A stretch of 64,000 nucleotides of DNA from Vitis vinifera (Eukaryota; Streptophyta; Magnoliopsida; Vitales; Vitaceae), in assembly GCF_030704535.1 (NCBI RefSeq), contig NC_081823.1:2140501-2204500 (forward strand). Direction: 5' to 3'. Shown piece after piece: positions 39,288 to 64,000 of this stretch. Below the pieces are notes generated by a model that saw only the letters and a program-made list of their open reading frames with translations, was not told the origin of the DNA and searched no databases. Made by a program: the position numbers and the translations under genes. Each line of letters starts with the position of its first letter. The first letter of the stretch is position 1.

Positions 39288-40501
39288 ATGATGAGCTTCC
39301 CTCCACGTGGCATTCCCAAACTTAAGACCCTTTGGCTGTCCAAGTCAAGCAGATAACCTATCTGGGATCAATCCATCTAGACCAAGATAAACTCCGTCTG
39401 GTGCAAGAAGTGAAAGATTTTTTTTTTGGCGATGCCAGATGAAATGGACAGACCAAGCCGATTGGGGCTTTCAAACATGCAAACCAACCCAACCAAAGTT
39501 CTTAGGTATTGAACAGATGATTAATCATACTTGATGTCTGAGCGATGAACTAGACAACATTTACACACAAAAATCAATGTCAATTAGTTATTACACACAA
39601 TTAGTGACCTTAACAAACGTAAATGCATAGTCAACTATATGGTCCGAGATTCTTGCATGACAACCAACAAATGACACCAATAAGCAATCCTTGCTTGATA
39701 TGATTGCCCGACCCGTATTGAAATGATGGCGTTGACTGTCTCAATAAGGCTTATTATCCTCCCTGATGACAAACATCACCACAAGAAGGGCATTGTTGGT
39801 ATTGTACAAACTAGATATAGGTCTGTTTAGCTTCACCGGAGTTGGATGGACTTCTTTCTTGCACAAAAGGGTGTTCGGATAGGTGGTTCGGGCACGCTTC
39901 TCCAAAGCTTAAGTCATAAATCAATAAGGATGAATCCAATAGTTTTTTTAATGGCTATGTACGTGCGTACCTTTTTCATGTTTTTTAAGGGGGTTTTATA
40001 GAGCAAATGGCACCATTGTGCATTCATGCCATTCTTGCCTTATTAAGACATTCAATGCCATCATTTTAGTATGGATATGGTAATCTACTAAGCAAGGGTT
40101 GCTGATTGGTGTCATTTGTTGGTTGTCGTGCAAGAATCTCATACCATATAGTTGAATGTGCAGTTACGTTCGTCAACGTTGCTAATTGTGTGTAACGACT
40201 AATTGACACTGATTTTTGGGTGTAAATGTTGTTTAGTCGGTCGCTCAGACATCAAGTATGATTAATCATCTGTTCAATGTCTGAGAACTTCGGTTGGGTT
40301 GGTTTGCTTGTCTGAAAGTCCTAACTGGCTTGGTATGTCTGTTTCATCTGACATTGCGGAAGAAGGAAATTTCTAACTTCTTATGCTAGACGGAGTTTAT
40401 CTTGGTCCAAACGGATTGATCCTAGATGGGTTATCTACTTGCCTTGGATAGCCAAAGGGTCTTGAGTTTGGAAAGGCCACATGGAGGGAAGCGCCTCACA
40501 G
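39288..40501. repeat. Inverted pair of LTR copies
   Basis: The left arm (about 39288-39770, +) and right arm (40501 down to about 40030, -) are imperfect inverted copies. Shared blocks include TGA-G-GCTTCCCTCCA, AGACCCTTTGGCT, AGATAAACTCCGTCT and GAACAGATGATTAATCATAC. The right copy appears to extend further, to about 39796 (TGTTGGTATTGTAC), and carries a CTATAAAAC box. The arms lie tail to tail around a spacer of roughly 250 bp. This reads as the 3' LTR of the old element plus a second, reversed copy. Confidence 0.7.
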
Positions 40502-41236
40502 TTTAGGCAATATGACGCCTATTAAGAGTACTAGTTTTCCATACTGGCTTACAATGTAGTCACAGAAGGGCCCTTCGATTTCTTAACATGTTCTTATAGA
40601 GATGGCATCACAGTCTTTCAGGCCGGTAGTGAGGCGTTGGTACAAGTTGATGCCTTTCCCAAATGGTGCAAACAGGAATTACACCATCCAAGTCTCATGG
40701 GAGCAGAGCACCACCGTTGAGGAGGGGTAATCAAGCGATGACTCATCTGTAGTCAAGAGTACTATCTTTGCTAACTTGTTGACCTGGGGGAGAGTGGTGG
40801 GCAGCGATCGATGCACAAATTGTGATGTAGTATATGGACTTGATGCCTAGCTTGAAAGCAAAAGTCGAAGCCTAATAAGGAAAATCAAAGAACAAAAAGT
40901 CTGGCTTCAAGGCACGTAGGACTGCTTCAACTTGGTCAGTGGTGTGGTCCATGGCAGTGGCGAGAAGGTGATAAGAGAAAAAGGCATGTCAGAAGCAGTT
41001 TCAGCTCCAGGATGAAGACCATCAACATGGGGGATGGTGAGAGGATGGAAAGTGATGAGAGTAGGATGAAGATTCAGGTACTGTAGCTGGGATTGGGTCT
41101 TTTCGGGCAAAATGAAGGTGATCTTGTGGCCCCTCTCAGCAAGCTTGTTGGAGAGATGGAGGTAAAGAGTCAGATGACGAAAAGCAAACCATGGGTACAT
41201 GGCTATATGAAATTTTGTGTTTTTGACCATGGCCAT
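40502..41236 (-). pseudogene. UGT79-type pseudogene (copy D, 5' part only)
   Basis: The start (MAMVKNTKFHIAMYPWFAF) and about the first 245 residues resemble copy C. The reading frame is open for 109 codons, then shifts near 40980 (one base missing after Ser-Asp-Met-Pro-Phe). Further downstream at least one stop and other changes occur. The homology ends at 40502 exactly where LTR sequence begins, so the donor-binding half is gone. The catalytic motif is Phe-Arg-His instead of Phe-Gly-His, though the His remains. Its promoter flank (TATA-like box and beyond) keeps the order inferred to be ancestral. It is non-functional. Confidence 0.9.
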
Positions 41237-42720
41237 TTTCCTTCTTCTTGGTTGTTTATGTTTAAAGATTTTGGTTGCAACTTATAAAGAGGTACTCATT
41301 TCCCCTTCCTGATCAAGAGGGTAGAGATAAGTAGATGACATCCAATAATGGGGAGCACATGAAGCACATGAATCACATGGGGTGTTTTATGGGAGTTCTA
41401 AAAGCATTGCTTCATTCAGGGTGTGCAATATTCATATATGTACGTATTATATATATGCAGTCATGGGGTTGAAAGAATTGTGTTGTTGTTTGGTTCATGG
41501 GAAAGAAAGATCTCTTATCTTAGTAGGTAATTAAGATAATTAATTGAGAATATCTTTTTGTTATTTTAAGCTTTTAATGCGCATAATAGATGCTTAATTT
41601 TATGCCCTACAGTGCTACAGAAATAAAAGAATGGTAGTTCTCATTTGTGAATTCATCTAGTAGTAGACTGGTAGTTGCGCTTCCATTATTGAAAACACTG
41701 AATGATGTTGTGATTCCATGTCATGTGAGAAAAATGGACGTGTGTTTCCCTATGGTGCTTGAAGTGTATTAATTTTTTTATTATTATCATAGTACTTTAT
41801 TTGTATGATTGTACTTTCATTAGTTGTTTGTGTTGAGAAGTTAATGGGGGAGTTTTAGAGTACTAAGTTTAAAAGATTCTTCCATGATGATAAAAACCTC
41901 TTAATAATAATAACAATTTTAAAAAATGAACAATAATAATTCAAGAACATTCAACCGAAAAGAGGCATCAAATATAACGTGGAAAAACCTTCCAAATTGA
42001 GGTAAAATATCATCGACAAAATCTTCCAATATTTCAATAAAATAGGGATACAAATAATCAAGTCTTCACTAGTTTCTCTACTTCGAAAACTTATATAAAT
42101 ATATTTCTATACTTGAGGTGAGAATTCATTGCCCCCAAAAACAATGAACAGAAAGATATTAGGAAGAAGTCATATCACAGAGACTTTCCCAAAAGATTGA
42201 TGAAAGAACTTGTAACTTCACCCTTGAGCTCTAAAATAGTGCTTCAAAAACAACCCTAATTTTTTTTCTTTTTCTCAATTACCCATTCTCCCTTCATATA
42301 AAAGCCCTAATGCTATTTACATTTGGGTTTAAAGAATACCCAAATACAAAATAGTCTAAAACATGGGCTCATGGGCCAGACAAACTTAGTCCAACAATAT
42401 CCCCCCACAAAACGACCTTAATTTTCTTTCATTTCCTAAATCACCCCTCCTCCCCTTATACCAAAGTCCTAAGGCTATTTACATTTGGGCTTAAGGAACA
42501 CCCAAATATAAAATAGTCTAATACATAGACTAATGGGCTAGACAAATTTAGGCCATCAAATTGTACTCTCATTTGATGGCATAAATCTTATCATATTATT
42601 CAATAATCCCGATCTAAAGTTATTATACAAGGATACAAGTATATGATATGAGAGTATAGACAAACAAATTATAGGTTATTATATAAGGATACAAACATAT
42701 AATATCAAAGTATAAATAAA
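41237..42720. repeat. Upstream flank of copy D
   Basis: This corresponds to the C flank (25435-25620, 28950-29897, 30882-31152) without the Copia and Mutator-like insertions, so it shows both empty sites: GTGCAATATTCATAT near 41426 and acaaaacga at 42407-42415. An internal partial duplication (TTTGGGCTTAA-GGAA-ACCCAAATA) occurs twice, near 42323 and 42485. No gene is seen. Confidence 0.7.
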
Positions 42721-43229
42721 TGAATTATGAGATGTAAGTAGGGTATAAAGTAACGAAACCAAATTATATACATAATATGTTATAAGAGGTATTGATGGGA
42801 TAAGAACCCTTAATGTAAAAAGTCATTATAATAATGAAATTGAGTCAAAAGGTAAGAGAGATATTTGGAAAATTTGAATAAGATTTTGAAAAAACAAACT
42901 CTTTGATTATATTTTGTGGAAAATTAGAAGATCATTGATACATTTGAAAATGTTTTTGAAAAATATTTTAAAGATATAATTATTTGAAAATGGTTCTTAA
43001 GAAGAGTTATCAATTGTTTTCAAGAACGAAACTTTATTTAAGAACTCAAATATGATGAGTAGTTTCTTATGCTTATTCTCTACAAATGTGTTGTACATTT
43101 ATGTATAATATAAAAGTTTTCAAAATATTTTATATATTTTCAATTAATTAGAACACCCTACCAAAAACAATGGAAAATATCTCAAATTTGTTCTTAAAAA
43201 TAACTTATTTATCAAATGATCAATTGGGT

Positions 43230-43792
43230 TAATTTAAAATAATTTAATCAAATTATTTTAAAAGTAATCAAAATCAACCTAGATTTAAAATTTAAATTAT
43301 ATTTAATATTTCTAACTCAAAATATAATAAATGCATTTAAAAAATAATTTGAACATAATTAATGACTTTAATAAAATATATAAAAATGTATATGACCATA
43401 AATATAAAAAAACTTATTAATCATTAAAACATTATAAATTACAAAAGATAGAATTCTTTAAATATTGATTTGATTTAGCTTTTATCCATTAGAGATAAGT
43501 AAACCAAAAACCAAAAATCAAAATTTAAAATTCTCAAACCTAATCCACTTTGTATGGTTGTTGAAGCTTTAGTCAATTTGATTGATTTTGGTTGGATTGG
43601 ATTAATTTTATTGATTTTATTTTATTATTATTATTATTATTATTATTTTTTACTTGTATCCTTGCTCAAGTCAATGGGCTGGTTGCTTTATATTTGCATG
43701 ATTCACGAAATATATATCAAATAGGTGGTCGTTGGAGAAGTGATCAGATATTTTAAATTACATTACCTGTCAAGTGATCAAGAGATGAGATA
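43230..43792. repeat. Cluster linker repeat, copy L3
   Basis: This lies directly before UGT fragment E. Landmarks are AAGTAATCAAAATCAAC, TTTAATAAAATATATAAAAATG and GATTGATTTTGGTTGGATTGGA, then CAAGTCAATGGGCTGGTTGC. Close copies are L5 (47930-48520) and L4 (44340-45110). A TTA trinucleotide run sits at about 43620-43650. Confidence 0.65.
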
Positions 43793-44295
43793 ATCTCTGT
43801 AAGAACATGTCAAGAAATCGCAGTACCCTTTTGTGACTACATGGAAAGACAGTTAGGAAAACCAGTGCTCCTAACGGGCCCCGTTTTGCCTGAACTTTCA
43901 CCGATGGAGTTGGAGGACCGGTGGGCGCAGTGGCTAGGCGGATTCAAGCCTGGTTCAGTAATATCCTGTGCACTTGGAAGCCATAATTTCCCCGAAAAGG
44001 ACTAGTTCCAAGAACTACTCCTGGGGTTTGAGCTAACAAGCCTGTCCTTCCTAGCAGCCCTAAAACCACCATTAGGAGCTGCAACCATTGAAGAGGCCTT
44101 GCCGGAGGGGTTCCAAGGGAGGGTTGGAGGGAGAGGAGTGGTTCAAGGAGGGTGGGTGCCGCAGCCCTCAATCCTGAGCCACTGGGAGTCCTTGATGAGT
44201 GACCCCCAGATAGTGCTGGTACCAGAGCTTTCTGACCAAATGTTCAGAGCTAGGCTATTGGCTGAAGAGCTTAAGGTTGCAGTGGTGGTTGAGAA
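43793..44295 (+). pseudogene. UGT79-type pseudogene (copy E)
   Basis: Homology starts near residue 215 (Ile-Ser-Val-Arg-Thr-Cys-Gln-Glu-Ile) and stops inside the C-terminal domain at about 44295. There it joins 3' UTR sequence (TTGTGCCCTACA-TTT) also seen after pseudogene B. It has one in-frame stop near 44003 and an exact 45-bp (15-codon) in-frame loss inside the PSPG box: Ser-His is followed at once by Trp-Glu-Ser-Leu, so the conserved His-Cys-Gly centre is missing. It faces gene F tail to tail, as B faces C. It is non-functional. Confidence 0.9.
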
Positions 44296-44339
44296 TATTG
44301 TGCCCTACATTTTACAATATTTGAATGCTATGACTTTAT

Positions 44340-45110
44340 GAAATTTATTCACTATTTCTATTCAATTTATATTTATATTAAATAAAGTAAAATTGTTTTC
44401 AAATTTCTTAGTATAAAAAAGATGTGATTCAATTCAATCAATTTTTAGAGAAAAAAAATAATGGAACTGATATATTAAGTTTATTTCTTGAATTAAAATT
44501 GAATTGACATATTTCAATAATGAAGAAAAACCAAATCAAATCAGGTTTGTTTACGATTAATTTAGTTTAATTTAGTTCAAATGACTGATGACATTATTTT
44601 TAAAAGTAATTAAAATCAACTTGAGTTTAAAATCTAAAATTTCTAACTCAAAATATAAAAAAATGCATTTAAAAAATAATTTAATCATAGTATAACAATA
44701 ATAAATTGCTTCAATAAAATATATGAAAATGTATATGATCATAAATATTAAAAAACATATCAAACATTGAACAATTATAAATCATTAAAGATAGGAGTCT
44801 TAAAATATTTGATTTAGCTTTTATCATTTGGAGACTAGTAGATCAGAAAGCAAGTTTATAATATTTTTAAAACCTAATCTATTTAATTGATTTTGGATGG
44901 ATGTGATTTATTTGTTTATTTTTTATTTTTTCTTGCACCTATCGTTGAGCTGGTTACTTTATATTTTGTTATATATATATATTTATTGTCACATGATTTA
45001 TAAAAAATATATCAAATAGGTATTGGGAGAAGTGACGTGATATTTTATATCATATTACCTATCTTGTAATCAATAAAAAGATACTCTCTATTGTCTTTTG
45101 CAATCACTTC
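44340..45110. repeat. Cluster linker repeat, copy L4
   Basis: This follows fragment E as L1 follows B. Landmarks are TTCTATTCAATTTATATTTA, TTTTTAGAGAAAAAAA, GATTTTGGATGGATGTGAT and AAAAAGATACTCTCTATTGT. The last motif is repeated at about 45186-45220. Confidence 0.65.
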
Positions 45111-45972
45111 AGGTTTCATTAGATTATTTAAAGTTAATATCACTTGAAAGAAATCTTTTCCTCACCTACTTGCTTATTTTCCTATCTTGTAATCAATAAA
45201 AAGATACTCTCTATTGTCTTTTATTTAATATGATATAACACAATTTTAAATTAACAAGTTTGACATATATTTTTTTAAATTTTAATAATTGATTATTTAG
45301 AAAGAAAGAGTTATTGTTAATGTTTAAATATTTTTTTGATATAAAATAAGGGAGAGATGATGAGATGGTCGTATCTTTGTTCAATCACAAATTTCTTTCT
45401 TACTAATGTCTACACGTTGATGTATCACAAACCTCAAAATAATTTTTGTTTTTTGTTGCATAAGGTGTCTTTTAATTATTCCTTATAAATGAGGGATATA
45501 TGAAGGATTTTCATTTTACACCTTTGTTTTACCTTTTATAACTAAAAATATTTATAAAGATATTTTAAATATTTTATTTTATAATTTAATTTCAAAAAAT
45601 AACAATATAGAAAATCTATCATGCCATATTTTCTATCAAAAATATTATTCTAAAATTAGATTTTGAATAAAATAATGAATTTGATGCATTTTTCAACCAT
45701 ATTTAATTACAGTATCTCAAATCTATTATCCAAATAAGATTTAAAAAAAGAAAAAGAAAAAGAAAAAGAGGATGGAAGCAAAAAAGGTAATACTAAATTG
45801 AATATTTTCAAAACATGAAACTACTCTCCTTATTAGTTGGGGAGTGAGAAAATTGAAGGAGAAATATTTTCTGAACAATACTAGAGAGTCTCCATTGCTA
45901 CATTTCTACTTCAGAAACATACTTTTCTGCAACAATATTTCTTTTTAATCAAGAAAGATCTCCTGCAATTGA
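45111..45972. other. Convergent spacer and 3' flank of gene F
   Basis: AT-rich. The final 200 bp (from about 45772) match the 3' flank of gene C. A short AAAAAG repeat lies at 45745-45769. No gene is recognised. Confidence 0.55.
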
Positions 45973-47346
45973 TCATTTTTTATCCAAAAGTTGTTGCAGT
46001 TGCTGGACAAAATTCTCAATGTAATTGCTCATAAAGCCTTGGCTGGTCAAGGTCTCCTTCCACTTAGCATGATTCTTCCTCACTAAACCACCCACCTCAC
46101 TCTCTTCGTCCATCACTGATCTGACGGCTCTGCACAAGCTCTTCTTTGAAAACCACCCATTTTCTTCCTTCTCAATCTCCACTGCAACTTTTAGCACTTC
46201 CGCCAATTGCCTAGTGTTCAATATTTGGTCAGGGAGTTCCGGTACCAGCACTATTTGGGGGTCACTGGTCAGGGACTCCCACATTGATCCAAAGCCACAG
46301 TGGCTCACAAAACACCCCACTGATGGGTGGCTCAGTATTGAGGGCTGCGGCACCCACCCTCCATGAACCACTCCTCTCCCTCCGACCCTCTCTTGGAACC
46401 CCTCCGGTAAGGCCTCTTCAATGGTGGCAGCTCCTGTCGGTGGTTTTAGAGCTACTAGGAATGGCAGGCCTGTTAGCTCTAACCCCAGGAGTAGTTCTTG
46501 GAACTGGTCCTTTTCCGGGAAATTTTGGCTTCCAAATGCACAGAATATTACTGAACCAGGCTTAAACCCACTCAGCCACTGCGCCCACCGGTCCTCTGAT
46601 GGCGTGGGTAAAGGTTTGGGCAATACGGGGCCTGTTAGGAGCACTGGTTTTCCATACTGGCTTGCAAGGTAGTCACAGAAGGCCCCTTCGATTTCATGAC
46701 ATGTTCTTATAGAGATGGCATCACAGCATTTCATGCCGGTGGTGAGGCGTTGATACAAGTTGACTCCTTCCCCAAATGGTGCATACAGGAATTTCACCAT
46801 CCAAGCTTCATGGGGGCGGAGCACCACAGTTGAGGAGGGGTAACCAGGGGGTGGCCCAGCTGTAATTGGCCTGTCTTTGCCAACTTGTCCACCCGGGACA
46901 GGGTGGCGGGCAAGGGCTGCTGCACAAACTGCACTGTAGTATATGGACTTGATGCCTAGTTTGGAAGCCAAAGTGGGAGCCCAGTAAGGAAAATCAAAGA
47001 GCAAAAAGTCTGGCTTCAAGGCGCGTAGGGCTGCCTCAACTTGGTCAGCGGTGCGGTCCATGGCGGTGACGAGAAGGTGATGCATGAAGAAGGGCACATC
47101 GGAAGCAGTTTCAGCACCGGGAGGGAGGCCATCAACATGTGGGATGGTGAGGGGATGAAAAGTGATGAGAGTAGGATGAAGATTCAGATGCTGCAGCTGG
47201 GATTGAGCTTTTTTGGGCAAAATGAAGGTGATCTTGTGGCCCCTCTCAGCAAGCTCGTTGGAGAGATGGAGGTAAGGAGTCAGATGACCAAAAGCAAACC
47301 ATGGGTACATGGCTATATGCAATTTTGTGCTCCTGGCCATGGCCAT
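45973..47346 (-). CDS. UDP-glycosyltransferase, UGT79 type (copy F, intact)
   Basis: A single exon. From the Met at 47346, which gives the same MAMAR start as copy C, it is 457 aa. A further in-frame ATG at 47391 would add 15 residues, but that stretch overlaps the TATA-proximal leader, so I prefer 47346. The predicted role is the same as for C: a sugar-extending glycosyltransferase on flavonoid-type glycosides. Catalytic His is in Phe-Ala-Phe-Gly-His (residue 21). The PSPG box is residues 331-374 and identical to that of C. Most differences from C are scattered, with a cluster at about residues 145-170. It faces fragment E. Its promoter lacks about 170 bp present in D and, apart from the insertion, in C. 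Confidence 0.92.
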   Translation of the reverse strand: MAMARSTKLHIAMYPWFAFGHLTPYLHLSNELAERGHKITFILPKKAQSQLQHLNLHPTLITFHPLTIPHVDGLPPGAETASDVPFFMHHLLVTAMDRTADQVEAALRALKPDFLLFDFPYWAPTLASKLGIKSIYYSAVCAAALARHPVPGGQVGKDRPITAGPPPGYPSSTVVLRPHEAWMVKFLYAPFGEGVNLYQRLTTGMKCCDAISIRTCHEIEGAFCDYLASQYGKPVLLTGPVLPKPLPTPSEDRWAQWLSGFKPGSVIFCAFGSQNFPEKDQFQELLLGLELTGLPFLVALKPPTGAATIEEALPEGFQERVGGRGVVHGGWVPQPSILSHPSVGCFVSHCGFGSMWESLTSDPQIVLVPELPDQILNTRQLAEVLKVAVEIEKEENGWFSKKSLCRAVRSVMDEESEVGGLVRKNHAKWKETLTSQGFMSNYIENFVQQLQQLLDKK

Positions 47347-47387
47347 TTTCCTTCTTCTTGGTTGGTTTATGGTTGAAGATTTCGGTT

Positions 47388-47402
47388 GCAACTTATATAT
47401 AT
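47388..47402 (-). promoter_or_regulatory. TATA-like box of gene F at a deletion junction
   Basis: On the minus strand the gene-proximal TATAAGTTGCAACC is shared with C and D. Directly upstream the sequence jumps to TATATA and ATGCCA-type sequence that in C and D lies about 170 bp further away. The core box is kept while the proximal flank is gone. Confidence 0.55.
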
Positions 47403-48959: not shown

Positions 48960-49149
48960 TTTGTATAGTATAAAAAAAATTAACAAACATTGAAGAATTA
49001 TAAATCGCAAAAAAATGGGAGTGTTAAAATATTAATTTGATTTAGTTTTTATCAATTAGAGACCAGTAAATCAACAAGTGATAAAATCAAAATTTAAAAT
49101 TCTCAAAGTCAAACCAAATTTGTTCTGTTGTTGAAAACCAAATCAATTT
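48960..49149. repeat. Cluster linker repeat L6, left half
   Basis: The right half resumes at 59498 after the gypsy element. Landmarks are GAAGAATTATAAATCGCAAA and GTTGTTGAAAACCAAATCAA, then TTGATTGATTTTGGCTGGATT on the far side. Confidence 0.65.
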
Positions 49150-49965
49150 TGTTGCTACCTGAGTCTTTGAGGATCCACGTAGTCGCCAGATGGATGGACG
49201 CGTGATTTCAACTTATACAGGTTCTTGATCCAGTCGTTATACCTGCAAGAAGGCATCCGGACAGGGTGTCCGGACACACCCTCCGATGGTTTTGTTAGCC
49301 ATGGACCGAGAGAGGTATAAATCAGTTTGCCTTTTTTCAGGTATCAAGAAGTTACCAGGGGCCTCTTTTCTTCGTGTGAAGGCATATATATATACAGCTT
49401 CAGGGGTACTGTTCCTCTCATTAATGGCGAGGAGATATTTTATGTTTGTCATGATGACATTCGGAGGCAGTATGGCCATCACCACCCTACTGGCGGCTGT
49501 CAGAAACCGTGGTAGGTGATGCTGCTGTCTAGATATCATAGGAAGTGAGCATGTAGAATGATCGTGGGAAGTGACCAGTTGTCACTTCGACCCGTCCTTT
49601 CACTCTGCAGATGATGGGACGTGGGCCATGGCTGATTGTCGTGATAGCGTGTAAGACTCGCTTTACTTTAATTGATGATCCGGACGATTATGTCCGGGTG
49701 GCACGTACTAATTGCCCGGATGCATTGTGGAGCGGATGCATCATGAAGGTTGTCCGGATGTCTGTGTTTTGCCAGCGACGTTTGCTCTTCCTTGGATAGG
49801 AGAAGTTGAAACGTCATTTGCCTTTCCTTGAGGCGGTCCGGATGGGAGAATTGCCTCACACATATCTTTAGGGGAATCCGGATGGTGGTGGTTTGGATGA
49901 TGATGTGTGCCACGTGTCACTGTGAGGTGCGTGCCACGTGTTTCCCAGAGGGAGGGGTCCCTACA
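49150..49965 (-). repeat. 3' LTR of the Gret1-like element
   Basis: 816 bp with TG...CA ends on the plus strand (TGTTGCTACCT to GGGTCCCTACA). It is near-identical to the LTR at 58679-59497 and rich in the TCCGGA motif. Confidence 0.92.
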
Positions 49966-50197
49966 TTGCCCCCCTTTTTAACTTGCCTATTTTACCAAAA
50001 AATGGGCGGGTTAAAAAAATAACTGTCTTTTTGAAATTTGAAGAGGTCTCTTCGTCTGACTGGGCCACGTGGCGAGTGGGGGTGCGGAGGCCAAAAAAGG
50101 TCTTTATGACGAGCCGCCGACTCTGGGTATTCCCAGGCAGCATGTCGTTTCAATGATAACTTGTTTGGACGTTTGGCTTTCCGAGGGCCTGTCCCCC

Positions 50198-53055
50198 TAT
50201 AAATAGCGTACTGTACCTTCTTTTTCATTTTTTCTACTGCATTTTCCTGAGAGCCTTTCTTCTTCTTGCTTTTGCTGCGTCCTTTGCTTTTTCTGAGTAA
50301 AGAAACTCGAAAACACTTTTGTACCGGTGATTTTGTGTCGCGATACTCGTTTGCTGCTGGTGTTCTTATATCGAAACAACGATCTTTCTTCTTCAGAGCT
50401 TCATTTGGTACGTGTACTTTTGCTATTGCTGTTCCTTTTGTTGCGTTTTGTTGGTTCTTTGGTTTTGGTTTCTGATTTGTTTGGGTTAGGGTTTGTGTAT
50501 TTTCTGGGTTACTTGTGTTTTACCCATTGCATTTCTTGTGTGTAGGTTTGGGTTTGTGGTAAGAAATGGCTACAAAAAAGGCTGTTTCATCTTCCCGGGC
50601 TAGCGAAGTTTGTGGAAAGGCGATAGATAAGCTGGATGCGCAGGAATTCCGGGAACGGTTCTGTATCCCGGATAACGTGGCTATCGAACTGCTGAATGGG
50701 AGGGTGCTTGTGCCCTCCGAGAAAGCAGAAGAAAAAACTATCATCTTCTCGAAGGAACAATTCAATGCGGGGCTTCGGTTCCCTTTGCCAGCGTTGTTCA
50801 AGGAGTTCCTCCACTTCACCAAGATTCCGCCCGTCTTCATTCACCCCAACATTGTCCGGGTGCTGATGGGATGCAGCATCATAAACATGCTGTACAACCT
50901 CGATCTCACGCTGCTGGAGGTGTTTTTTGTGTATTCTTTGAAGAAGGTAAAAAATGACATCTTCAGCATGTCCGCACACCTGCCCTCCCTCCAAATGGTG
51001 ACGGAGTTGCCAGATTCGACAAAGGGAGGGGCGACGGGACACGTGGTGGTCCGGGGTGCATGGGCGGGGCTTTTGGAGCATCCGGCGAGGCCTTTCTCTC
51101 CCAACTACTCCTTGGTGGTTCCAGGTAGGTTTGCTTTGTGACTATTGTCCGGATTTTACTTTGTTGATTTTTTGTTGACTCTTTCGAATGATATTCTCAT
51201 CTTTTTGTTGCTGTTAATATAGGTCCGGAATTGAGGGGCCACCTTGTGGATTGGGTGGAAAAGGCATCTTTTGACCGTCTCAGCAAACTTTTTGAGGTAG
51301 ACGCCAAGAAGAGGCGATGTAAGACGCTGCTAATTGCGCAGAACCTAACGGCGATCGTCCGGGAGCCCCAAGAGTACATCATCAATATTCTCCCCAGGAA
51401 GATGCCGAAGGAGGTAGTGCCTGGGGAGCATTATATTGTGAAGGACCTCCCAATTTACGAGGCGTCAAAAGAGGCTGATGCTGAAAAACGCCGACTTCTC
51501 CTAGAGGATCGGGAGAAGAAGAAGAACGAAGGGACCCTTCGGAAGGCTCTCGGACAGAAACGCGACGTAGATTCTCCTTCAAATAAAACTCCAGCGAAAA
51601 GGAGGAAGCTGGTGAAGAAGCATGGGAAGGATGTGAAGGAGCCCACTCCTCCCAAGGAATTTGCTCCTCCGCCCATCATTCATGAGGCGGAGGTAATGAT
51701 AGAGGAGCCAGTGAACCCTGCCCCTCATTCCATCTCCAGCGGATCCGGACACCTTGTGGGGCTGAACCACTCAAGCACCTCCTTGGCAGCGGTTGCGCAT
51801 CTAGCGAATTTGGCAGAGGAAGCTGCGTCTGTTAACCATCCGGACTCCCGCAACCCGGATGCTGATGCAGCTGAGGCCGTTTATGCAACCCCTATGGAGG
51901 AAGCGGGAGCAGAAAGTCAGAGTCAGCCCTCTGACGATCATGACCGGCTGGCTCTTGTTCTGGTGACGGGGCCATTCTCAAAGAAGCCTCGCTCGGTGCG
52001 CAAGCAAGAGATTGAAGTCAGTTGCTCAACCGCCCACGATGCTCATCCGGAGGGGGGTGAAGTGGGGATGCAAACTGAGATTGCAGCTGTCCCGGAGGTG
52101 ATCCCGACTGAGGTTACACCCGGGGAGGACGATCCGGACGTAAATGTTGAGGTTCCAAATCCAGAACAAGAGTCATCTTCTCGTGCCTCATCGGAGGGGA
52201 ATCCTGTTAATGACGCATCTTGCACCTCTGCTAGCCCTTTTAGCTATGCGGAGTTGGAAGAGAAGCTAAAACAGATTCCACCCGGATTGCCCCTTGTCAA
52301 GTCTTCAGCCCAGATGTTCGAGATGGTGGAAACGGTAAAACTGTTTTTGTGCTTTTTGATTGTCATTCTGATGTGTGATTTCTAACTTTGCTTTTCTTGC
52401 TTGGCTATTTGTTTGCAGCTGGTGAGTGGTCTCCGTGGCATGGCCAATCAATATGATCTTTTCACTGACCTGCTGCGGACCACTGATTATATGAGGGTCT
52501 TCGCCGCTCGGCGCAAAGATGCTGAAGATCAGTTGCGCCTGAGACTGGCGGAGGCTGAAGCCAGCGTATCCGCCGCCCGGAGGGAGAATGAGTCCCTCCG
52601 GGCAGATTTGGCTGACGCAAAGGTCCGGGAGGAATCAATGGATGCCCGTCTGCTTGAGGCAGCAGATGAGATGGCTGGTCTGAGGGGGGAGGTGAGGCAA
52701 CTTCGGACAGAAGTTTCTATCGAAAAGAAACAGAGGGAAGATTTGCAGCTACGCTTGGTTGCACAAAAAGAGGAGCTAGAACAGGAGTTTGCTGCAGAGA
52801 GGGAGGAAATTGAAGCAGAATATCAAAAACAAGTGGATGATACGTTCATCTTTGAGTATCGGTGCTGCATGAAGAAGAACGGTATCAAGCGGGACGTGCC
52901 TTCAATTCCTCCGGGTGAAGAAAAGAAACTTTATGACAAGCCTGCTCCCTGATAGTTTATCTCTTTTTGTAACTTTTTCTGTAATCTTCCTTCTGTATTT
53001 TTTTTGTGGTCCGTAGACCTCCTTGTACATATTTTTAGCTATATCAATAAAAATA
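50198..53055 (+). mobile_element. Antisense accessory gene carried by the Gret1-like element
   Basis: A gene-like unit runs opposite to the element, between integrase and the 3' LTR. A TATA box (CTATAAATAGCG, 50197-50208) precedes a long leader and an ATG at 50566. Three coding blocks follow (about 50566-51124, 51223-52334 and 52419-52952), separated by short gaps with GT...AG edges. AATAAAA lies at 53044-53050. Block 1 holds a Met-Gly-Cys-Ser-Ile-Ile-Asn-Met motif. Block 2 is basic then acidic and low in complexity. Block 3 is a long Ala/Glu/Arg-rich coiled coil. It resembles the plant transposon-associated proteins often mis-annotated as host genes. The old element at 33428 carries a homologue in the same place. 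Function is unknown. Confidence 0.65.
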
Positions 53056-53088
53056 TTTCTTTTTTCATCTGAACTTGTCTTGGCTTTC

Positions 53089-54053
53089 TTATTGATAATA
53101 CTGCTTTAAATTCGACACATTCCACGGTCTAAGTAACGGAGTTCCGTCCAACTTTTGTAAATGATAGGCTCCATTGCCATTTGCTTTAGACACTATATAA
53201 GGTCCTTCCCAGTTGGCTTGGAACTTCCCTGCACCCACTTCAGTAGTATTCTCAAAAACTTTTCTAAGGACTAGCGTACCATTTTTGAAGCTTCTTGGTC
53301 TCACTTTGCGATTGTAATGTGCTGATGCCCTTTGTTGGTAATCTGCCATTCGGATGGCCGCGCTTTCCCGCACTTCATCCGTCCAATCCAAATTTCTTCT
53401 GAATTCTATGTTAGCATCACTTTGTTTTGCTGCGTCGGTTCGGATAGTAGGGAGACCTATTTCGGTAGGAATGACTGCATCCATTCCATATGCAAGAGCG
53501 AAAGGAGTATTTCCTGTTGGCCGTCCGGGTGTGGTTCTGTAGGCCCATAGGACACCGGGTAGCTCTTCCACCCACTTCCCTTTAGCTTGCTCAAGCCTTT
53601 TCTTTAGGGCATTGATTAGGGTTTTGTTTGTGGCTTCTGCTTGCCCGTTGCTTTGAGGATACCGTGGTGTGGAGTATGAGTTCCGGATATTCAGCTCCGA
53701 ACAGAAATTTCTGAATGCAATGCTATCAAATTGTAGACCATTGTCGGCTATGATGGTTTGGGGGATTCCAAAACGGCAGATAATATTTTTCCATACAAAC
53801 TTGGTGACATCCTTGTCTTTGATGCTAGCATATGCTTCAGCTTCTACCCACTTACTGAAATAATCTGTGGCGACAAGCAAAATTTCTTTTGGGCAGGTGC
53901 AGCTAGGAGAGGTCCCACTATGTCCATGCCCCACTGTGCGAAGGGCCATGGACCTGAGATTGATTTTAACGTTGTTGATGGCATATGTGGAATGGGAGCG
54001 TGCCTTTGACATTTATCACATCTTTTGACATATGCTGCCGCGTCTTTCTTCAT
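53089..54053 (-). mobile_element. Integrase region of the Gret1-like element
   Basis: A zinc-binding start with Cys-x-x-Cys and the integrase core (Asp-Tyr-Phe-Ser-Lys-Trp-Val-Glu-Ala, then Asp-Asn-Gly and the Asn-Gly-Gln-Ala-Glu stretch) are visible. It ends with a Trp-Glu-Gly-Pro-Tyr motif typical of gypsy integrases. It is described here as a fossil part only. Confidence 0.85.
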
Positions 54054-54101
54054 TGTTGGCCAATAGTATCCTTGTGAATGGGCTCTATGTGCCAGAGATC
54101 G

Positions 54102-56174
54102 TCATCCCGAATGATTTCCGCATACTCCCTCATGTAACTCGGCCAACACATATTGGGCCTCTAGGTGTCCTAGGCACCGAAGGTATGGTCCCGTGAAAGA
54201 TCGCTTGTACAGGTGTCCCCCAATTAAGGTAAAACGGGCAGCCTGCACCCGTGCTTTGTGTGCCTGTTTGGGATTTCCGGGTAGAATTTCTGTCCGGATA
54301 TATTCTGTGATGTCATTCATCCATTCTTGCCCGTCCGCTTGGGGTGCCTCAATGGTATTGTAGATTGAAACTTCCGAGACGGAGGGGTTGGTTTGCACAT
54401 GTATGGGCAGAAGAATGGCTTCCTTGATAGGGAGGGAGGCAGCTATGCCGGCCAAAGCGTCAGCGCGCCTGTTGTCAGCTCGCTTGATTTTTTCGATTGT
54501 CCATTCAGTGAATTGCTGCAAAGTGTTTCTTACTTTAGCTAAGTATCGTGCCATGCGTGCGTCCTTAGCCTCATATTCCTCCTGGACATGTTTTACCACG
54601 AGTTGTGAGTCGCTGAAGATCCGGAGTTTGGAGACGGATAGGGCAAGAGCGAGGTCCAATCCGGACAAGATAACCTCATATTCTGCCTCATTGTTAGAGG
54701 CAGAGAATCCCAGCTGGATGGCTTGTTCCAAATATTCCCCAGTTGGGGATTGCAATAAGAGCCCGACTCCAGAGCCTGATGAACGTGAGGCTCCGTCAAC
54801 TCGTAGAGTCCACCACTCTTTTTTACTTGATTCTTCATGCTGGCCAGGTTTTCGGGAATATTCTAGCACGAAGTCAGCCATTACCTGGCCTTTCATGGAC
54901 AACCTTGGTTGGAATTCAATTCCAAACTCGCTTAATTCGATGGCCCATTGTAGCATTCTCCCGGTTAAATCTGGCTTGTGCAGAATATTGCGAAGGGGTT
55001 GATCAGTCAACACGATCACTGGGTGGGCTTGAAAATAGGGCCGGAGCTTTTGGGCAGTGTTTCGAAGGGCTAAGGCTGTTAGCTCCATTTTTGAATATCT
55101 GGTTTCTACGTCTGCCAATGCCCTGCTGACATAATAGATGGGCTTCTGCTCCTTAGGTGATGGGCAGCGGAATAGAACGGCACTGATTGCCCATTCTGAC
55201 ACTGCCAGATACATGTATAATTTCTCCTTTGGGATGAGGCTGCTTAAAATGGGTGGTTGCATAAGACAATGCTTAATCCTTTCCAAAGCGCTTTGACAAC
55301 TGTCCGTCCACCCATGCGCTCCAGCCTTTCGTATTGCCAAGAAGAAGGGTCGCAACTCATCAGTAAAGCGGGCTATGAAACGTCCTAACGCAACGAGCTT
55401 GCCTGTGAGGCGTTGTATCTCCTTTTTGTTCCTGGGAAGAGTTGTTTCCATAACTGCCTTGACTTGATCCGGGCTGACTTCTATGCCCCTTTGGCTGACC
55501 ATAAATCCTAGAAATTTTCCGGCACTTACGCCAAAAGCGCATTTAGAAGGATTTAGCTTCATGCCATACCTTCGTAAGAGGTGAAAAACTTCTTGCAAAT
55601 GAAGGATATGCTGTTCTCGAGTTTTGCTTTTAACCACGATATCGTCAATATATACCTCTATTGAGTGGCCTATCAGAGGTTTGAAGATTTTAGTCATCAA
55701 TCTTTGATAAGTGGCGCCAACATTTTTGAGTCCGAATGGCATGACTTTATAGCAATATAGGCCGTGTGGCGTTATGAATGCTGTTTTTTCCTCGTCATCC
55801 GGGGACATGGGGATTTGATGATATCCGGAGAAGGCATCCAAGAAAGAGAGCATCCCCTGCCCGGAAGTGGAATCCACAATCTGATCTATTCGCGGCAAGG
55901 GAAAACTGTCTTTTGGACACACATTGTTGAGATTGGTGTAATCTACACAAACTCGCCATTTTCCTTCTTTTTTGGGTACCACGACTACGTTTGCCAACCA
56001 ATCTGGATAAGAAACTTCTCTAATGAATCCGGCTTCGAGCAATTTGTCAATCTCATTCCGGATGATTTTTTGTCTCTCCAGGTGAAAGCGCCTAATCCTC
56101 TGCCGGACGGGTCTGGCAGTTGAAAAGACGTTAAGCCTGTGAGATGCAATGGAGGGAAGAATGTGCCCACGCAA
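54102..56174 (-). mobile_element. Reverse transcriptase and RNase H region of the Gret1-like element
   Basis: The gypsy reverse transcriptase has Pro-Phe-Gly-Leu-Lys-Asn and Tyr-Ile-Asp-Asp-Ile motifs, followed by the usual RNase H. A second RNase H-like domain has Arg-Val-Asp-Gly-Ala-Ser, then Asn-Asn-Glu-Ala-Glu-Tyr and Asp-Ser-Gln. The extra RNase H is a trait of the Tat lineage. Confidence 0.85.
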
Positions 56175-56334
56175 AGATGTCGTGGTTCTGTCTGAGGATA
56201 TTTTGCATGTCCTGAGTTTCTTCTTGTGTCATGAGGGAACTGATGTTCGTGAGGTGATCGCTTTCCTCCGAAATTTGGATTGTTTGTAAGGGATCTACTG
56301 CCGGGGGATCTTTGTCCGCCGGACCCAATAATTG

Positions 56335-58647
56335 CTATTGGTCACGCGCAATGCTGGGTTCAGGGGGAGATGCATCCTCCTGGTTAGCCCCTGCTTCACG
56401 TGCTATTTGATAGCATTGGCGAGCGGCTAATTGGCTGCCATATAGGTCGATTTGGCCCTCGTTGGTGAGAAAACTCACCATTTGATGATATGTAGAGGGG
56501 ATAGCCTTCATGTAGTGGAGCCATGTACGCCCCAAAATGACATTGAAGGGTGATAACTCCTGTACTACTGAAAACTGAACGTTGAGAGTGACTGGGCCAG
56601 CTTGGACTGATAGTATGATATCTCCTAAGGATGTGGTTGATGATCCGTTGAATCCGGATAAGATTCGTCCGGGGTTTTCAAGGCCCGCGAGACTATGTCC
56701 CATGCGGCCAACGACTGATGCTTGCACCAGGTCGGCCGAACTGCCTGGGTCAACCAAGATACGCCGCACATCGAAGTCCCCAATTTCTAGGGACAAGATG
56801 AGGGCGTCGCGATGTGGTTGTAGTGTCCGGGTGGGATTCACTGGTGGAAAAATTATTGTTCCATCTATGGGGCGAGGGCCCTCCCCAGTTAGACCCGGCC
56901 GGATGGAATTAATGCGTTCGCGTATTGATGCAGCTCGCAACAATTTCTGCCTTTTCCGCCTGGAGTCATACTCCTCGTCAGATGGTCCTCCGGTAATATA
57001 GTTGATAATGGCCTTGGAGGCAACTGGGACCCTAGGGACTCCAGGGTTGTTGTGCTTGGAAACGTCCCTTCCTCCAGTATCCGTGCGGAGGTATTGCTTC
57101 AAATGCCCAGCTTTTATGAGTCTTTCGACCAAATACTGGAAAGATCGGCACGTCTCTGTTGTATGGCCATGATCTTTGTGGAAGGCACATTTCCTGCTAC
57201 GATCCCTTGTAGATGGGTCCATTGCAATGGGTCTAGGCCACTTGAAGTCGGTCAAGCCTTGGATCATTGGGAGAAGTTTCTCATATGATATAGAAAGAGG
57301 TGTGAGAGGCGGCATTTCCGGGCGACTTGGCCCTTCCTGCCTTCGGTCAGACGACTTTGGCCGATCCGGAGGTTTGGTATTTCTCTCTGTATTACTTCCG
57401 GATGGTCGTCCGGCAACCAAAACTTGTTGGGTGGCTGCACGTACGTCATCTTCCAGTATTGAGTATTTGTTGGCTCGTCTGAATAAGTCGTCCATTGTTG
57501 TAGGAGGTTTTTTGGCCAGTGATTCGAAAAATGGAGTGCCTGGACAGATGCTTCGTTTGAAGATCTGTAGAACAGCATCCATACTGCAAGCTTCCACTTG
57601 AAGTACGGCTTGGCCAAACCGCTTCACAAATTCCCTTAAGGATTCGTTATCTTGCATCTTTATGTTCTACAAGGTGCTGATATTTTGCTTGTGTCGGGCG
57701 GAGCATAAGTATTGTCCCACGAAAGCTTCGGATAGGTCCCTGAAATTGCCAACAGAGTTGGGAGGTAGGCGATGAAACCATGAGAGGGCCTGTCCCTGTA
57801 GGCTGGCGGGAAATACTTTGCATAGCAGCGCATCGTTGCCAATATCGAGCGTCATGAGCTGTCGATAATGCATGATGTGATCGAAGGGATCGTTGGTTCC
57901 ATCGTATGTGGAAAATTTTGGTACGAGGAATCCCCTTGGGGGCTCGTAGTTAATGATATGAGAGCAGAAAGGCGTGGAGAGCATGTCATCCAGCCTTTTG
58001 CTGATGGAGCCAGTGGGTGGCCCGTTTGGGATGCTTCTCCCAGTTGGCTGTTCCGCTGGGTGCAAATGAACGTTCCGCATCACGAGAGTGACTATGGGGT
58101 CACGATGCGGGTGAACGTTCTGCGCCATGGGGGTTGTCATGGGGTCAGGGCGTGGTGCCCAGGTTGTGACCATAGGTGGCCTTGATCTTCTAGGCTCTTG
58201 CGGGCCTAGTCTTGCGCGCATCGAATTTGACAACTGTGACTTTTTATCACGTTGCCTTTTTGCTGAAAAGTGAGTAGAGTCTGAGCTTTCCTCATAGGGA
58301 GCTCGAGGCATAGGCGTGCGTGGCTCATGAGGCCTCACGTTGCATGCCCCTGGGATTGCTCCTGTTGTCCCAGGGTATATTGACTCTGGTTCTTGCTGAG
58401 GCCTTGAGTTTGCTACTTGGCCTCTCGAATATTGACGTCGAGGAGGCCCTGATGTTGAAGCCTGGATGCGTAACACAACGTTTTCTTCTCTCAATCTCTC
58501 TGTCTCCTGGAGGAGAGCTTTTAGCTGCCTTTCGCTTGCTAACTGTCTCCTTTCGATGGCTAGGCGCCATTCAAAATTATCATTCTCTCCCCTACCAGAT
58601 GACCGACTTTGGGAAGGTGTGGCCATCTTTCTTAGTGACTGAATCAA
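56335..58647 (-). mobile_element. Gag and protease region of the Gret1-like element
   Basis: The N-terminal part is Arg/Gln-rich, followed by the retrotransposon gag domain (Phe-Ser-Thr-Tyr-Asp-Gly-Thr-Asn-Asp-Pro, then Leu-Ser-Trp-Phe). A His-x-x-Asp-His-Gly-His-Thr-Thr-Glu-x-Cys stretch and the aspartic protease site come after. Part of the near-whole element. Confidence 0.85.
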
Positions 58648-58678
58648 AGTAAAGAAAACTTCCCACAGACGGCGCCAA

Positions 58679-59497
58679 TGTTGCTACCTCGCGTCTTTGA
58701 GGATCCACGTAGTCGCCAGATGGATGGACGCGTGATTTCAACTTATACAGGTTCTTGATCCAGTCGTTATACCTGCAAGAAGGCATCCGGACAGGGTGTC
58801 CGGACACACCCTCCGATGGTTTTGTTAGCCATGGACCGAGAGAGGTATAAATCAGTTTGCCTTTTTTCAGGTATCAAGAAGTTACCAGGGGCCTCTTTTC
58901 TTCGTGTGAAGGCATATATATATACAGCTTCAGGGGTACTGTTCCTCTCATTAATGGTGAGGAGATATTTTATGTTTGTCATGATGACATTCGGAGGCAG
59001 TATGGCCATCACCACCCTACTGGCGGCTGTCAGAAACCGTGGTAGGTGATGCTGCTGTCTAGATATCGTAGGAAGTGAGCATGTAGAATGATCGTGGGAA
59101 GTGACTAGTTGTCACTTCGACCCGTCCTTTCACTCTGCAGATGATGGGACGTGGGCCATGGCGCTGATTATCGTGATAGCGTGTAAGACTCGCTTTACTT
59201 TAATTGATGATCCGGACGATTATGTCCGGGTGGCACGTACTAATTGCCCGGATGCATTGTGGAGCGGATGCATCATGAAGGTTGTCCGGATGTCTGTGTT
59301 TTGCCAGCGACGTTTGCTCTTCCTTGGATAGGAGAAGTTGAAACGTCATTTGCCTTTCCTTGAGGCGGTCCGGATGGGAGAACTGCCTCACACATATCTT
59401 TAGGGGAATCCGGATGGTGGTGGTTTGGATGATGATGTGTGCCACGTGTCACTGTGAGGTGCATGCCACGTGTTTCCCAGAGGGAGGGGTCCCTACA
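58679..59497 (-). repeat. 5' LTR of the Gret1-like element
   Basis: 819 bp, directly next to the primer site (58678-58661 region). It differs from the other LTR by a few substitutions and one small length change. Confidence 0.92.
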
Positions 59498-59640
59498 AAT
59501 TTGATTGATTTTGGCTGGATTAAATTTATTTTATTGATTTATATCTTTTTCTACACCTACTCATTTTCCATATCCTTAAATGACTTTCATCAACTTGCTC
59601 AGATCAATTCTTCATGCAGTGAAAATTAATCTAATCTCAT
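59498..59640. repeat. Cluster linker repeat L6, right half
   Basis: This continues the linker broken by the gypsy insertion (TTGATTGATTTTGGCTGGATT, then TCATTTTCCATATCC). Confidence 0.65.
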
Positions 59641-59822
59641 AATCAATATTATAATATACATGCATGAAAAGAGTTATACTATTTATTTCAAAATAGTGTT
59701 TTATCTAACTTTGGATTTAAAATGAAAATCTTCTTCTTAGTTTGGGGAAGGGTAATGACCGGCTTTGAATCTAAGGGGTTCTCATGATTTTAAAAGATAT
59801 ATATGCACATAGTTAAGAGAAA

Positions 59823-62074: not shown

Positions 62075-63441
62075 GGGCCTGTTTGTTTAGTGTTTTCAAG
62101 AACTGTTCTCTGTTCTTGAAAACAAAAAACACCAAAAACTCGTTTGGTTGAGAGAGTGATTTTTGTTTTTGTTGTTTCCCGTGTTCTCAAAATGACACTG
62201 TTTAGAGAACAACAAAATCTTGTTTTCCCCGTTTTTTTACTGTTCACAGAACAAAATTAAACAAAAAAAAACAATCTGTTTCCGTGTTTTTTTTTTTCTT
62301 CCCGTTTTTATCTCTTCTCCAGCACAGTGGCTCGCCTCTTCTTGATTTTTCCCGTTTCTCAGTTTTGATTCAAGGTTCGTGAAATTTAAATCCAATCGCA
62401 CAATAGCAAAGAGACCCCTAAAACGGATCCAAAAAACACAGGGAGCAAAAGAAAATCCATTTTTTTTGTTTTCCTTGGGGTTTTTGCTTGGATTTTCTCG
62501 GAAATCAAACGAGGATGAATTTTCTCGGAAATCGAATGGGGGATGGGTTTTCTTGGGAATCAAACGGGGGTTGCAGGGTTTTTGCTTGGATTTTCTCCGA
62601 AATCAAACGAGGATGAATTTTCCCGGAAATCGAATGGGGGATGGATTTTCTTGGGAATCAAACAGGGGTTGCAGGGTTTTTGCTTGGATTTTCTCGGAAA
62701 TCAAACGAGGATGAATTTTCCCGGAAATCGAATGGGGGATGGATTTTCTTGGGAATCAAACGGGGGTTGCAAAAAAAATAATAATAATAATAACATGATT
62801 AGATTAGTACCTGTGAGGATTGAGAGTGGCAGAGGAAAATAGGGCCTTTTACGGATTCTCTCGGCTGGAGGGCAACTTAGAAAAGGGCTTCTTGATGCCC
62901 GATGAGAGAAGTGGGTGGCATTTTGAATTTTAGATTTAGTAGAGATAAAAAAAAATTAACATCATGAGAACAATTTTATCTCAACTTAATAAAATATGCT
63001 ATAATTTTTAATAAAGTTAAAGATTAAATAAAAAAATATTAATAAAAATAATTTTATTATGTTTCATTTATTTTTTAAAAAATATAAAAAATATTTTTAT
63101 TTTTAAATTAATAAAATAAATAATTTTTTTTAATTTAAATTAACTATATATCTAAAAATTATTTATAAATTTATAATATAAAATTACTTGAAGAAAATAT
63201 TTTATTAATTAGAAAAGAAAAAAAAATCTTTCAAACATGTTTTTTGTTTTATTTGTTCTAAATTTTTTTTTTTATTAACTCAACCAAACATGTTTTTTTG
63301 TTTTTGAGAACAAAAACTGTTTTTCAAAATTCAATTCCCAAACACAATTTTTAAAAAAAAAACACCAAAAACTGTTCTTAAAAACTGTTCTCAAAAATTG
63401 TTTTCCAGAACAGTTTTCAAAAACAGCAACCAAACAGGCCC
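62075..63441. mobile_element. PIF/Harbinger-like non-autonomous DNA transposon
   Basis: 1367 bp with 3-bp target copies taa (62072-62074, 63442-63444) and inverted ends GGGCCTGTTTG(T/G)TT, the end type of PIF/Harbinger and Tourist elements. The outer ~80 bp on each side also share related GAACTGTTCT and CAAAAACACCAAAAACT stretches in inverted order. No transposase is recognised. A 98-bp tandem repeat lies inside. Confidence 0.75.
62480..62772. repeat. 98-bp minisatellite, about three copies
   Basis: TGCTTGGATTTTCTC starts at 62485, 62583 and 62681, an exact 98-bp period. Each unit itself holds three related blocks (TTTTCTCGGAAATCAAACG, then TTTTCTCGGAAATCGAATGG, then TTTTCTTGGGAATCAAACG), a higher-order repeat. 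The third copy ends at an AATAATAATAATAA run. Confidence 0.9.
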
Positions 63442-63444
63442 TAA

Positions 63445-63733
63445 ACTTCACTCCTCTAATTCTCACGTATTTTTATATATGAAACATGAATTTCATATTA
63501 TGTTACCATTTTCGCCCTCTAAATGAGAACTAATTTCTTTCATCTCCTTTTAATTGATGTATGATTTTCTACTCCGAATCTTGTGGTAGACAATTTTATA
63601 AAAAAATTAGAATTATTTGACAATATTATAAAAAAATAGTTTTGGAGAACGGTTGATCATAAAAATAGCTTTTAATTATTTTTTTTAAGAACAAAAAACC
63701 TACTCTTAACTTACCAATATATCTTTATTAAGC
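63445..63733. other. Short AT-rich spacer
   Basis: Nothing is recognised here. It ends abruptly at the start of UGT homology. Confidence 0.5.
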
Positions 63734-64000
63734 TCCTGTCGGTGGTTTTAGAGCTACTAGGAATGGCAGGCCTGTTAGCTCTAACCCCAGGAGTAGTTCT
63801 TGGAACTGGTCCTTTTCCTGGAAATTTTGGCTTCCAAATGCACAGAATATTACTGAACCAGGCTTGAACCCACCCAGCCACTGAGGCCACCGGTCCTCTA
63901 ATGGCGTGGGTAATACGGGGCCTGTTAGGAACACTGGTTTTCCATACTGACCTCCAATGTAGTCACAGAAGGGCCCTTCAATTTCATGACATGTTCTTCT
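63734..64000 (-). pseudogene. UGT79-type fragment (copy G), cut by the window edge
   Basis: The minus-strand sequence covers about residues 215-300 of copy F (Arg-Thr-Cys-His-Glu-Ile-Glu-Gly to Lys-Pro-Pro-Thr-Gly-Ala). It is almost identical to F at the nucleotide level over the first ~110 bp. Relative to F, 12 bp (Lys-Pro-Leu-Pro) are missing after Gly-Pro-Val-Leu-Pro, in frame. The 3' end stops at 63734 before the PSPG box, so this is at best a 3'-truncated copy. The 5' part lies beyond the window. Confidence 0.8.

Follow-up and report, generated by a model that had tools for sequence, protein, structure and literature searches.

Does a gene-like unit that runs opposite to gag-pol inside a grapevine retrotransposon constitute a real gene, and what would its product do? 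The unit lies in a 64,000-nucleotide stretch of Vitis vinifera DNA (contig NC_081823.1), referred to here as the window; the searched genome comprises 495.6 Mb in 21 contigs. A preliminary description of the window had recognized a TATA box, a leader, three coding blocks with intron-like gaps and a poly(A)-type signal, all opposite to a young gypsy element, and had suggested a real protein rather than noise. Antisense ORFs, as that description noted, are known in some Tat-lineage elements, and the Retand precedent is published (PMC11963269, PMC7264820).

The element and its antisense unit

The host is a Ty3/gypsy element of 10,348 bp (49150-59497, minus strand). Its LTRs differ at seven positions and two gaps (98.8% identity), and AATTT was found at both outer flanks by eye, so that "young" is a fair term for it. 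On the minus strand, Pfam domains appear in the order gag, protease (a weak match), reverse transcriptase (RT), two RNase H domains and integrase. Within the RT ORF, PF17917 is found at 315-417 and PF13456 at 459-575, the latter being a second, acquired RNase H of the kind that PMC5348765 gives as a feature of Tat elements, where it follows the Ty3/gypsy RNase H. The region between pol and the 3' LTR, about 3.1 kb (53089 to 49966), houses the antisense gene; the range published for this region in Retand, where it carries an antisense ORF, is 2,933-6,566 bp (PMC11963269). Its size and those of the LTR and the internal region all fall inside the ranges given there. The features are as follows.

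49150..49965, minus: 3' LTR, 816 bp
49256..49882, no strand: six TCCGGA palindromes in the 3' LTR, at 49256, 49269, 49679, 49753, 49837 and 49877
50198..50206, plus: TATA box, TATAAATAG
50230..50407, plus: non-coding first exon, its start set by the spacing from the TATA box
50408..50545, plus: 5'-leader intron, 138 nt, GT..AG
50566..51124, plus: coding exon 1, with the TRP28-like domain
51125..51222, plus: intron 1, 98 nt, phase 1
51223..52334, plus: coding exon 2, with a conserved N-terminal part, a basic stretch and an acidic linker
51588..51629, plus: basic, nuclear-signal-like stretch, TPAKRRKLVKKHGK
52335..52418, plus: intron 2, 84 nt, phase 0
52419..52952, plus: coding exon 3, with a long helix or coiled coil (modeled), a conserved C-terminal motif and the stop
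53046..53051, plus: AATAAA, poly(A)-type signal
53089..54012, minus: integrase ORF, PF00665
54102..56174, minus: reverse transcriptase and two RNase H domains, PF00078, PF17917 and PF13456
56335..57657, minus: gag end and protease, PF13650 under its cut-off
57667..58647, minus: N-terminal part of gag, PF03732
58679..59497, minus: 5' LTR, 819 bp

Because gag-pol is on the minus strand, the plus-strand unit is antisense to it, between pol and the 3' LTR. All the parts named in the preliminary description were found; the leader is among them, with an intron (50408-50545) that had been overlooked. From the ATG at 50566, phases 1 and 0 join the three coding exons into 734 codons. Between the AATAAA and the end of the integrase ORF lie 37 bases, and the antisense gene and pol thus meet tail to tail. 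In the window copy, a stop near 57667 cuts gag, and the pol frame is broken after the second RNase H and again inside integrase (53089-58647, minus strand); the antisense gene is fully open. Rfam at gathering thresholds gave no match across 49000-59700.

The element presumably resembles vine Gret1, which is about 10.4 kb long with an LTR of about 824 bp. Gret1 served as a Retand query in PMC11963269, and PMC9097378 describes it as transcriptionally active in callus, with the full-length transcript not seen.

Conservation of the gene and selection on its protein

Copies were collected by a protein search with exon 1, in which the best 150 of 836 candidate places were scored; 140 of these 150 matches have no internal stop. 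We aligned 49 distinct units, made up of the window and 48 of the first 50 loci (L001 is the window, and L020 duplicates L037). The units were chosen by protein similarity, seven by long open frames, and are thus not a random sample. TATAAA and the ATG are each present in 48/49 copies. Intron 1 keeps both GT and AG in 49/49, and intron 2 keeps GT in 44/47 and AG in 46/48 of the copies with letters there. For splice-site identity, four truncated or rearranged copies were dropped; among the 45 that were left, the splice dinucleotides are as in the window in 44 or 45 copies in all three introns (98-100%; for the leader intron, donor 45/45 and acceptor 44/45), compared with a mean identity of 0.74-0.79 in the intron interiors (0.74 in the leader intron). 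Counting against this, 4/121, 3/81 and 8/67 interior dinucleotides are conserved like the donor. AATAAA is present in 16/18 units, namely the window copy plus those 17 longer loci, out of 20, whose stop context was recognized. The signals for promoter, splicing and polyadenylation are thus conserved across copies.

Exon 1 is intact in 45/49 copies, exon 2 in 31/49 and exon 3 in 11/49, although 28 of the 49 loci end before the exon 3 stop. The 18/49 copies broken in exon 2 count against the gene; even so, exon 2 varies in length and yet is in frame in 43/49. We also observed that intron 2 is of another sequence type (72-73% identity or no match) in L003, L004, L011, L020, L024, L025, L027, L029 and L030, and since this occurs despite exon 1 being more than 90% identical, it suggests recombination between subfamilies.

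Intron 1 extends to more distant families. In L061, L064 and L065 (57-70% identity), exon 1 ends at the same place, with Pro and a split Gly codon before GT; the AG before exon 2 is kept in L061 and L065, and L064 either lacks it or has it one base away. The leader TATA and donor were found in L065 and not in L061 or L064. Relatives of 32-41% identity also have intron 1 at an unchanged place: L058 keeps GT..AG, L055/L056 (a single place) keeps AG with a GC donor, and L057 is degraded. A position common to relatives 32-70% identical argues that intron 1 predates the divergence of the families. Next to the L055 relative is an ORF (L055:3250-3999) that we take to be Ty1/copia-like, so that this copy may be nested or broken. 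Intron-less copies were considered as a proof of splicing and rejected: the pattern for junction 1 gave 11 matches vs 48 for its reversed control, and that for junction 2 gave none. The seven exon-1 copies with open frames of more than 600 residues all still have about 100-150 bases separating exon 1 from exon 2. Three exon-3 copies have frames that run to 483-604 residues, and the one of them that was checked retains intron 2. We found no description of the conserved introns of this antisense TRP28 gene in the literature searched.

The ratio dN/dS, which the preliminary description had proposed as the check on a selected protein, is well below 1: overall, in intact copies, it is 0.240 for exon 1, 0.278 for exon 2 and 0.209 for exon 3. 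In contrast, the same DNA gives 0.90-1.64 in the other two plus frames, 0.92-1.47 in two antisense frames and 0.33-0.40 in the antisense frame sharing the wobble position, so that every wrong-frame control is above the true frame. Among intact copies, pairs with dS >0.4 give 0.20-0.25 in all three exons, and the most similar pairs (dS <0.05) give 0.48, 0.51 and 0.14 for exons 1-3. By region, constraint is tightest in the C-terminal motif, at 0.105, and in the TRP28 stretch of exon 1, at 0.121, and loosest in the acidic linker (0.402), with 0.306 in the basic stretch. The integrase core was compared in 11 of 21 units examined, those in which at least 240 residues matched with no stop. At dS >0.4, it gives 0.07, and the antisense exons of these copies give 0.21-0.23; the antisense protein is therefore constrained, but less than integrase. 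In a simulation of neutral substitution at 15% divergence, the exon 2 frame stayed open in 36/2000 runs. Open exon 2 at a divergence of at least 15% was seen in 11 of the 30 intact copies measured besides the window, a set that comes from the protein-similarity search and excludes broken copies.

The antisense unit is a real gene in its anatomy and the conservation of that anatomy, and it encodes a protein under purifying selection. The low dN/dS and the conserved signals bear out the earlier suggestion of a real protein rather than noise, although neither the TRP28-like domain nor the scattered TCCGGA motif, both described next, had been noticed there.

Protein architecture and a dispersed TCCGGA palindrome

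The predicted product has 734 residues, with a TRP28-like domain, a basic nuclear-signal-like stretch, an acidic linker and a coiled coil. Exon 1 scores 16.7-17.0 bits against PF04195 (Transposase_28, TRP28), under the cut-off of 26.2; 22/24 copies match at E <=0.1 (best 5.8e-4), and no other family matches. Across the genome, with 150 of 195 candidates scored, PF04195 has one place at E <=0.001, C18:12056087 (30.8 bits), which is outside the family studied here; its alignment to exon 1 of the window copy covers 139 aa at 41% (E 5e-30). Since the window match is sub-threshold and this relative aligns with it, we call the domain TRP28-like. Folded alone, exon 1 gave an unusable model (pLDDT 38.4), and DNA binding thus gains no structural support from it. 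The basic stretch in exon 2 is basic in 14/14 aligned copies. A coiled-coil end had been proposed earlier, and a confident single-sequence model backs a helical exon 3, with one helix at residues 2-153 (mean pLDDT 86.6); the heptad pattern of residues 31-135 was equaled by 55 of 5000 shuffles. A Cys-Cys motif is conserved at the protein C-terminus. Against solved structures, the exon 1 profile had one match at E 0.76 and the exon 3 profile none at E <=0.01, and no relatives were found in viral contigs.

The six TCCGGA sites of the 3' LTR belong to a wider enrichment. In the LTR, CCGGA/TCCGG has a density of 17.2 per kb, followed by exon 2 with 12.6, the protease ORF with 9.1 and RT-RNase H with 8.7. 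The part of the window preceding the element, 49.1 kb, gives a background of 0.55 per kb, and neither 49966-50565 nor the N-terminal gag ORF contains any. No sequence among 1000 from a first-order Markov model reached the LTR count of six TCCGGA. Codon choice was controlled by synonymous shuffling. Exon 2 of the window has 13 motifs vs 4.4 in the shuffles and RT-RNase H has 18 vs 6.1 (0/2000 shuffles reach either count), and the protease ORF has 12 vs 3.9 (1/2000). The excess is weak in exons 1 and 3 (reached by 14/2000 and 48/2000) and absent from integrase (849/2000 reach its count) and the gag N-terminal ORF (none observed). In seven other copies, exon 2 was above all 500 shuffles in six and above all but 14 in the seventh.

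The sites are also retained. In 27 other LTRs (L003-L027, L029 and L030; L002, partial, L028, with none, and later loci were left out), the window LTR's TCCGGA sites persist in 146/162 site-copies (90%) vs 48% for other 6-mers and 50% for other CG-containing 6-mers. LTRs of about 70% identity keep high counts, as in L065 (12 in 574 bp) and L073 (7 TCCGGA). The more distant TRP28 families (seven loci: L055, L057-L061 and L064) have 0-3.6 per kb, with L061 and L064 the highest and above the 0.55 background. The motif thus tracks family descent, which leaves its tie to the antisense protein a candidate one. In the TRP28 family at 57% identity, no other dense motif stood out upstream of the two members inspected.

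Genome-wide, three TCCGGA with two gaps of <=30 bases occur 1563 times vs 27 for the reversed pattern, a control without CG. Some of these clusters lie in 48-bp tandem arrays; the one stretch examined has no detectable similarity to the element. It holds eleven copies of a TCCGGA-rich 48-bp repeat (L070:3047-3571), and similar-looking matches recur on contig C1. The motif is dense and family-specific in the element, and a stretch with no similarity detected to the element carries it too. A tandem-repeat artefact was rejected for the window LTR, which has only five short two-copy repeats. TCCGGA may be tied to LBD-type host factors; literature matches listed for LBD factors contained no TCCGGA, and of those for TCCGGA in plant retrotransposons, none was judged relevant from the title and the start of the abstract.

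Possible roles of the antisense product

We regard it as likely that the unit is an accessory gene, functional and spliced, that belongs to a Ty3/gypsy retrotransposon of the Tat/Retand type; for this gene we infer transcription, splicing, nuclear location, dimerization and action on element DNA or transcription. Transcription by RNA polymerase II would begin at the TATA box, which is immediately internal to the 3' LTR, and run antisense to gag-pol; the three introns would be removed, and the transcript would end at the AATAAA shortly before the end of pol. Antisense orientation can let a retroelement retain introns through its RNA stage: being opposite to the genomic RNA strand, they should stay unspliced in the replication intermediate and be inherited intact by new copies. 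The product would dimerize through its coiled coil, enter the nucleus and act on the element's own DNA or transcription, with the dispersed TCCGGA palindrome as its candidate target. The most likely function is that of a nuclear protein that acts on the DNA of its own element; a VANC-like anti-silencing role, in which the protein would bind TCCGGA and remove methylation, is possible.

Several other readings deserve weighing. That the frames are a neutral fossil, open since the copies are young, is barely credible: the near-identical window LTRs and the many broken copies would suit it, but the frame-specific dN/dS already contradicts it, the ratio being low at dS >0.4 and frames being open where neutral ones would mostly be lost. 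The same frame specificity, with the strongest constraint in the TRP28 stretch and the C-terminus, makes it very unlikely that the unit matters as an antisense RNA, which would bind the genomic RNA in its 3' part and adjust copy number via double-stranded RNA, the protein being a by-product. The primary transcript would indeed match about 2.8 kb of genomic RNA in complementary sense, and PMC7264820 discusses such a double role, yet exon 2 keeps its frame while varying in length. Alternatively, the protein may act not on DNA but in the cytoplasm or the particle, where its coiled coil would tie it to Gag and its task might be, for example, structural, that of a chaperone or one in transport. The long helix and the Cys-Cys motif suit protein-protein contacts, and the DNA-binding claim for TRP28 is given in PMC11963269 as a prediction; we consider this reading improbable, however, as the nuclear-signal-like stretch is basic in every aligned copy and the Grande product is reported as nuclear (PMC7264820).

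The meaning of the palindrome is a separate matter. Chances are about even that TCCGGA is a host transcription factor site or reflects another DNA- or RNA-level need, unconnected with the antisense protein. The motif follows family descent and recurs in the 48-bp array, both of which fit a host factor; its enrichment in coding exons and RT-RNase H beyond codon choice is unusual for a simple enhancer site. We think it rather unlikely that the antisense TRP28 protein works as a dimer with sequence specificity, reading TCCGGA in the LTRs and coding DNA of its own element and so marking the family for de-repression or protection. If true, it would be an LTR-retrotransposon self-recognition system, VANC-like in logic, and a palindrome would suit a coiled-coil dimer.

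Returning to the accessory gene that we favor, antisense TRP28 genes are already published as typical of Retand, and what is added here is the conserved introns, the ancient position of intron 1 and TCCGGA. Recently active Retand clusters all have antisense ORFs, with TRP28 in 97% (PMC11963269, Vicient 2025), and PMC6317226 reports Transposase_28 in 23% of Retand elements. The window gene shares with the ORFs of PMC11963269 the antisense orientation, the place between pol and the 3' LTR and a TRP28-like N-terminal domain; it differs in being multi-exon and in its sub-threshold PF04195 score, and the word "intron" is absent from the main text of that paper. Maize Grande gene23, likewise an antisense accessory gene, is described in PMC7264820 (after Gomez-Orte 2013) as having its own promoter and a nuclear product; the promoter is reported there and predicted here from a conserved TATA. 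The same source urges the examination of antisense and spliced transcripts. The locus contributes a full gene model with predicted splice sites, selection at the protein level and a candidate DNA target, TCCGGA.

Two further systems are likened without a claim of homology. VANC of the VANDAL transposons (PMC5735166) also pairs an element-encoded protein with a short motif that is dense in that element and specific to its family. However, the VANC21 motif is described as non-palindromic, mainly non-coding and often in tandem repeats, whereas TCCGGA is palindromic and also found in coding DNA; protein-motif binding is shown for VANC, and the pairing of the window protein with TCCGGA is a candidate only. 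HTLV-1 HBZ (PMC11963269, PMC7264820) is another antisense retroelement gene, with a nuclear product where ours is predicted to be nuclear; the HTLV antisense promoter is inside the 3' LTR, and the one predicted here is just outside it. PMC12786077 and PMC10606437 added nothing decisive.

Around the element, the window holds a cluster of presumably glycosyltransferase-like genes and fragments in both orientations at 40496-47391 and 63731-63998, one of them open at 45973-47391 (minus strand). Between the element and the second of these groups, a 98-bp repeat is present in three head-to-tail copies that are 96-100% identical (62478-62771).
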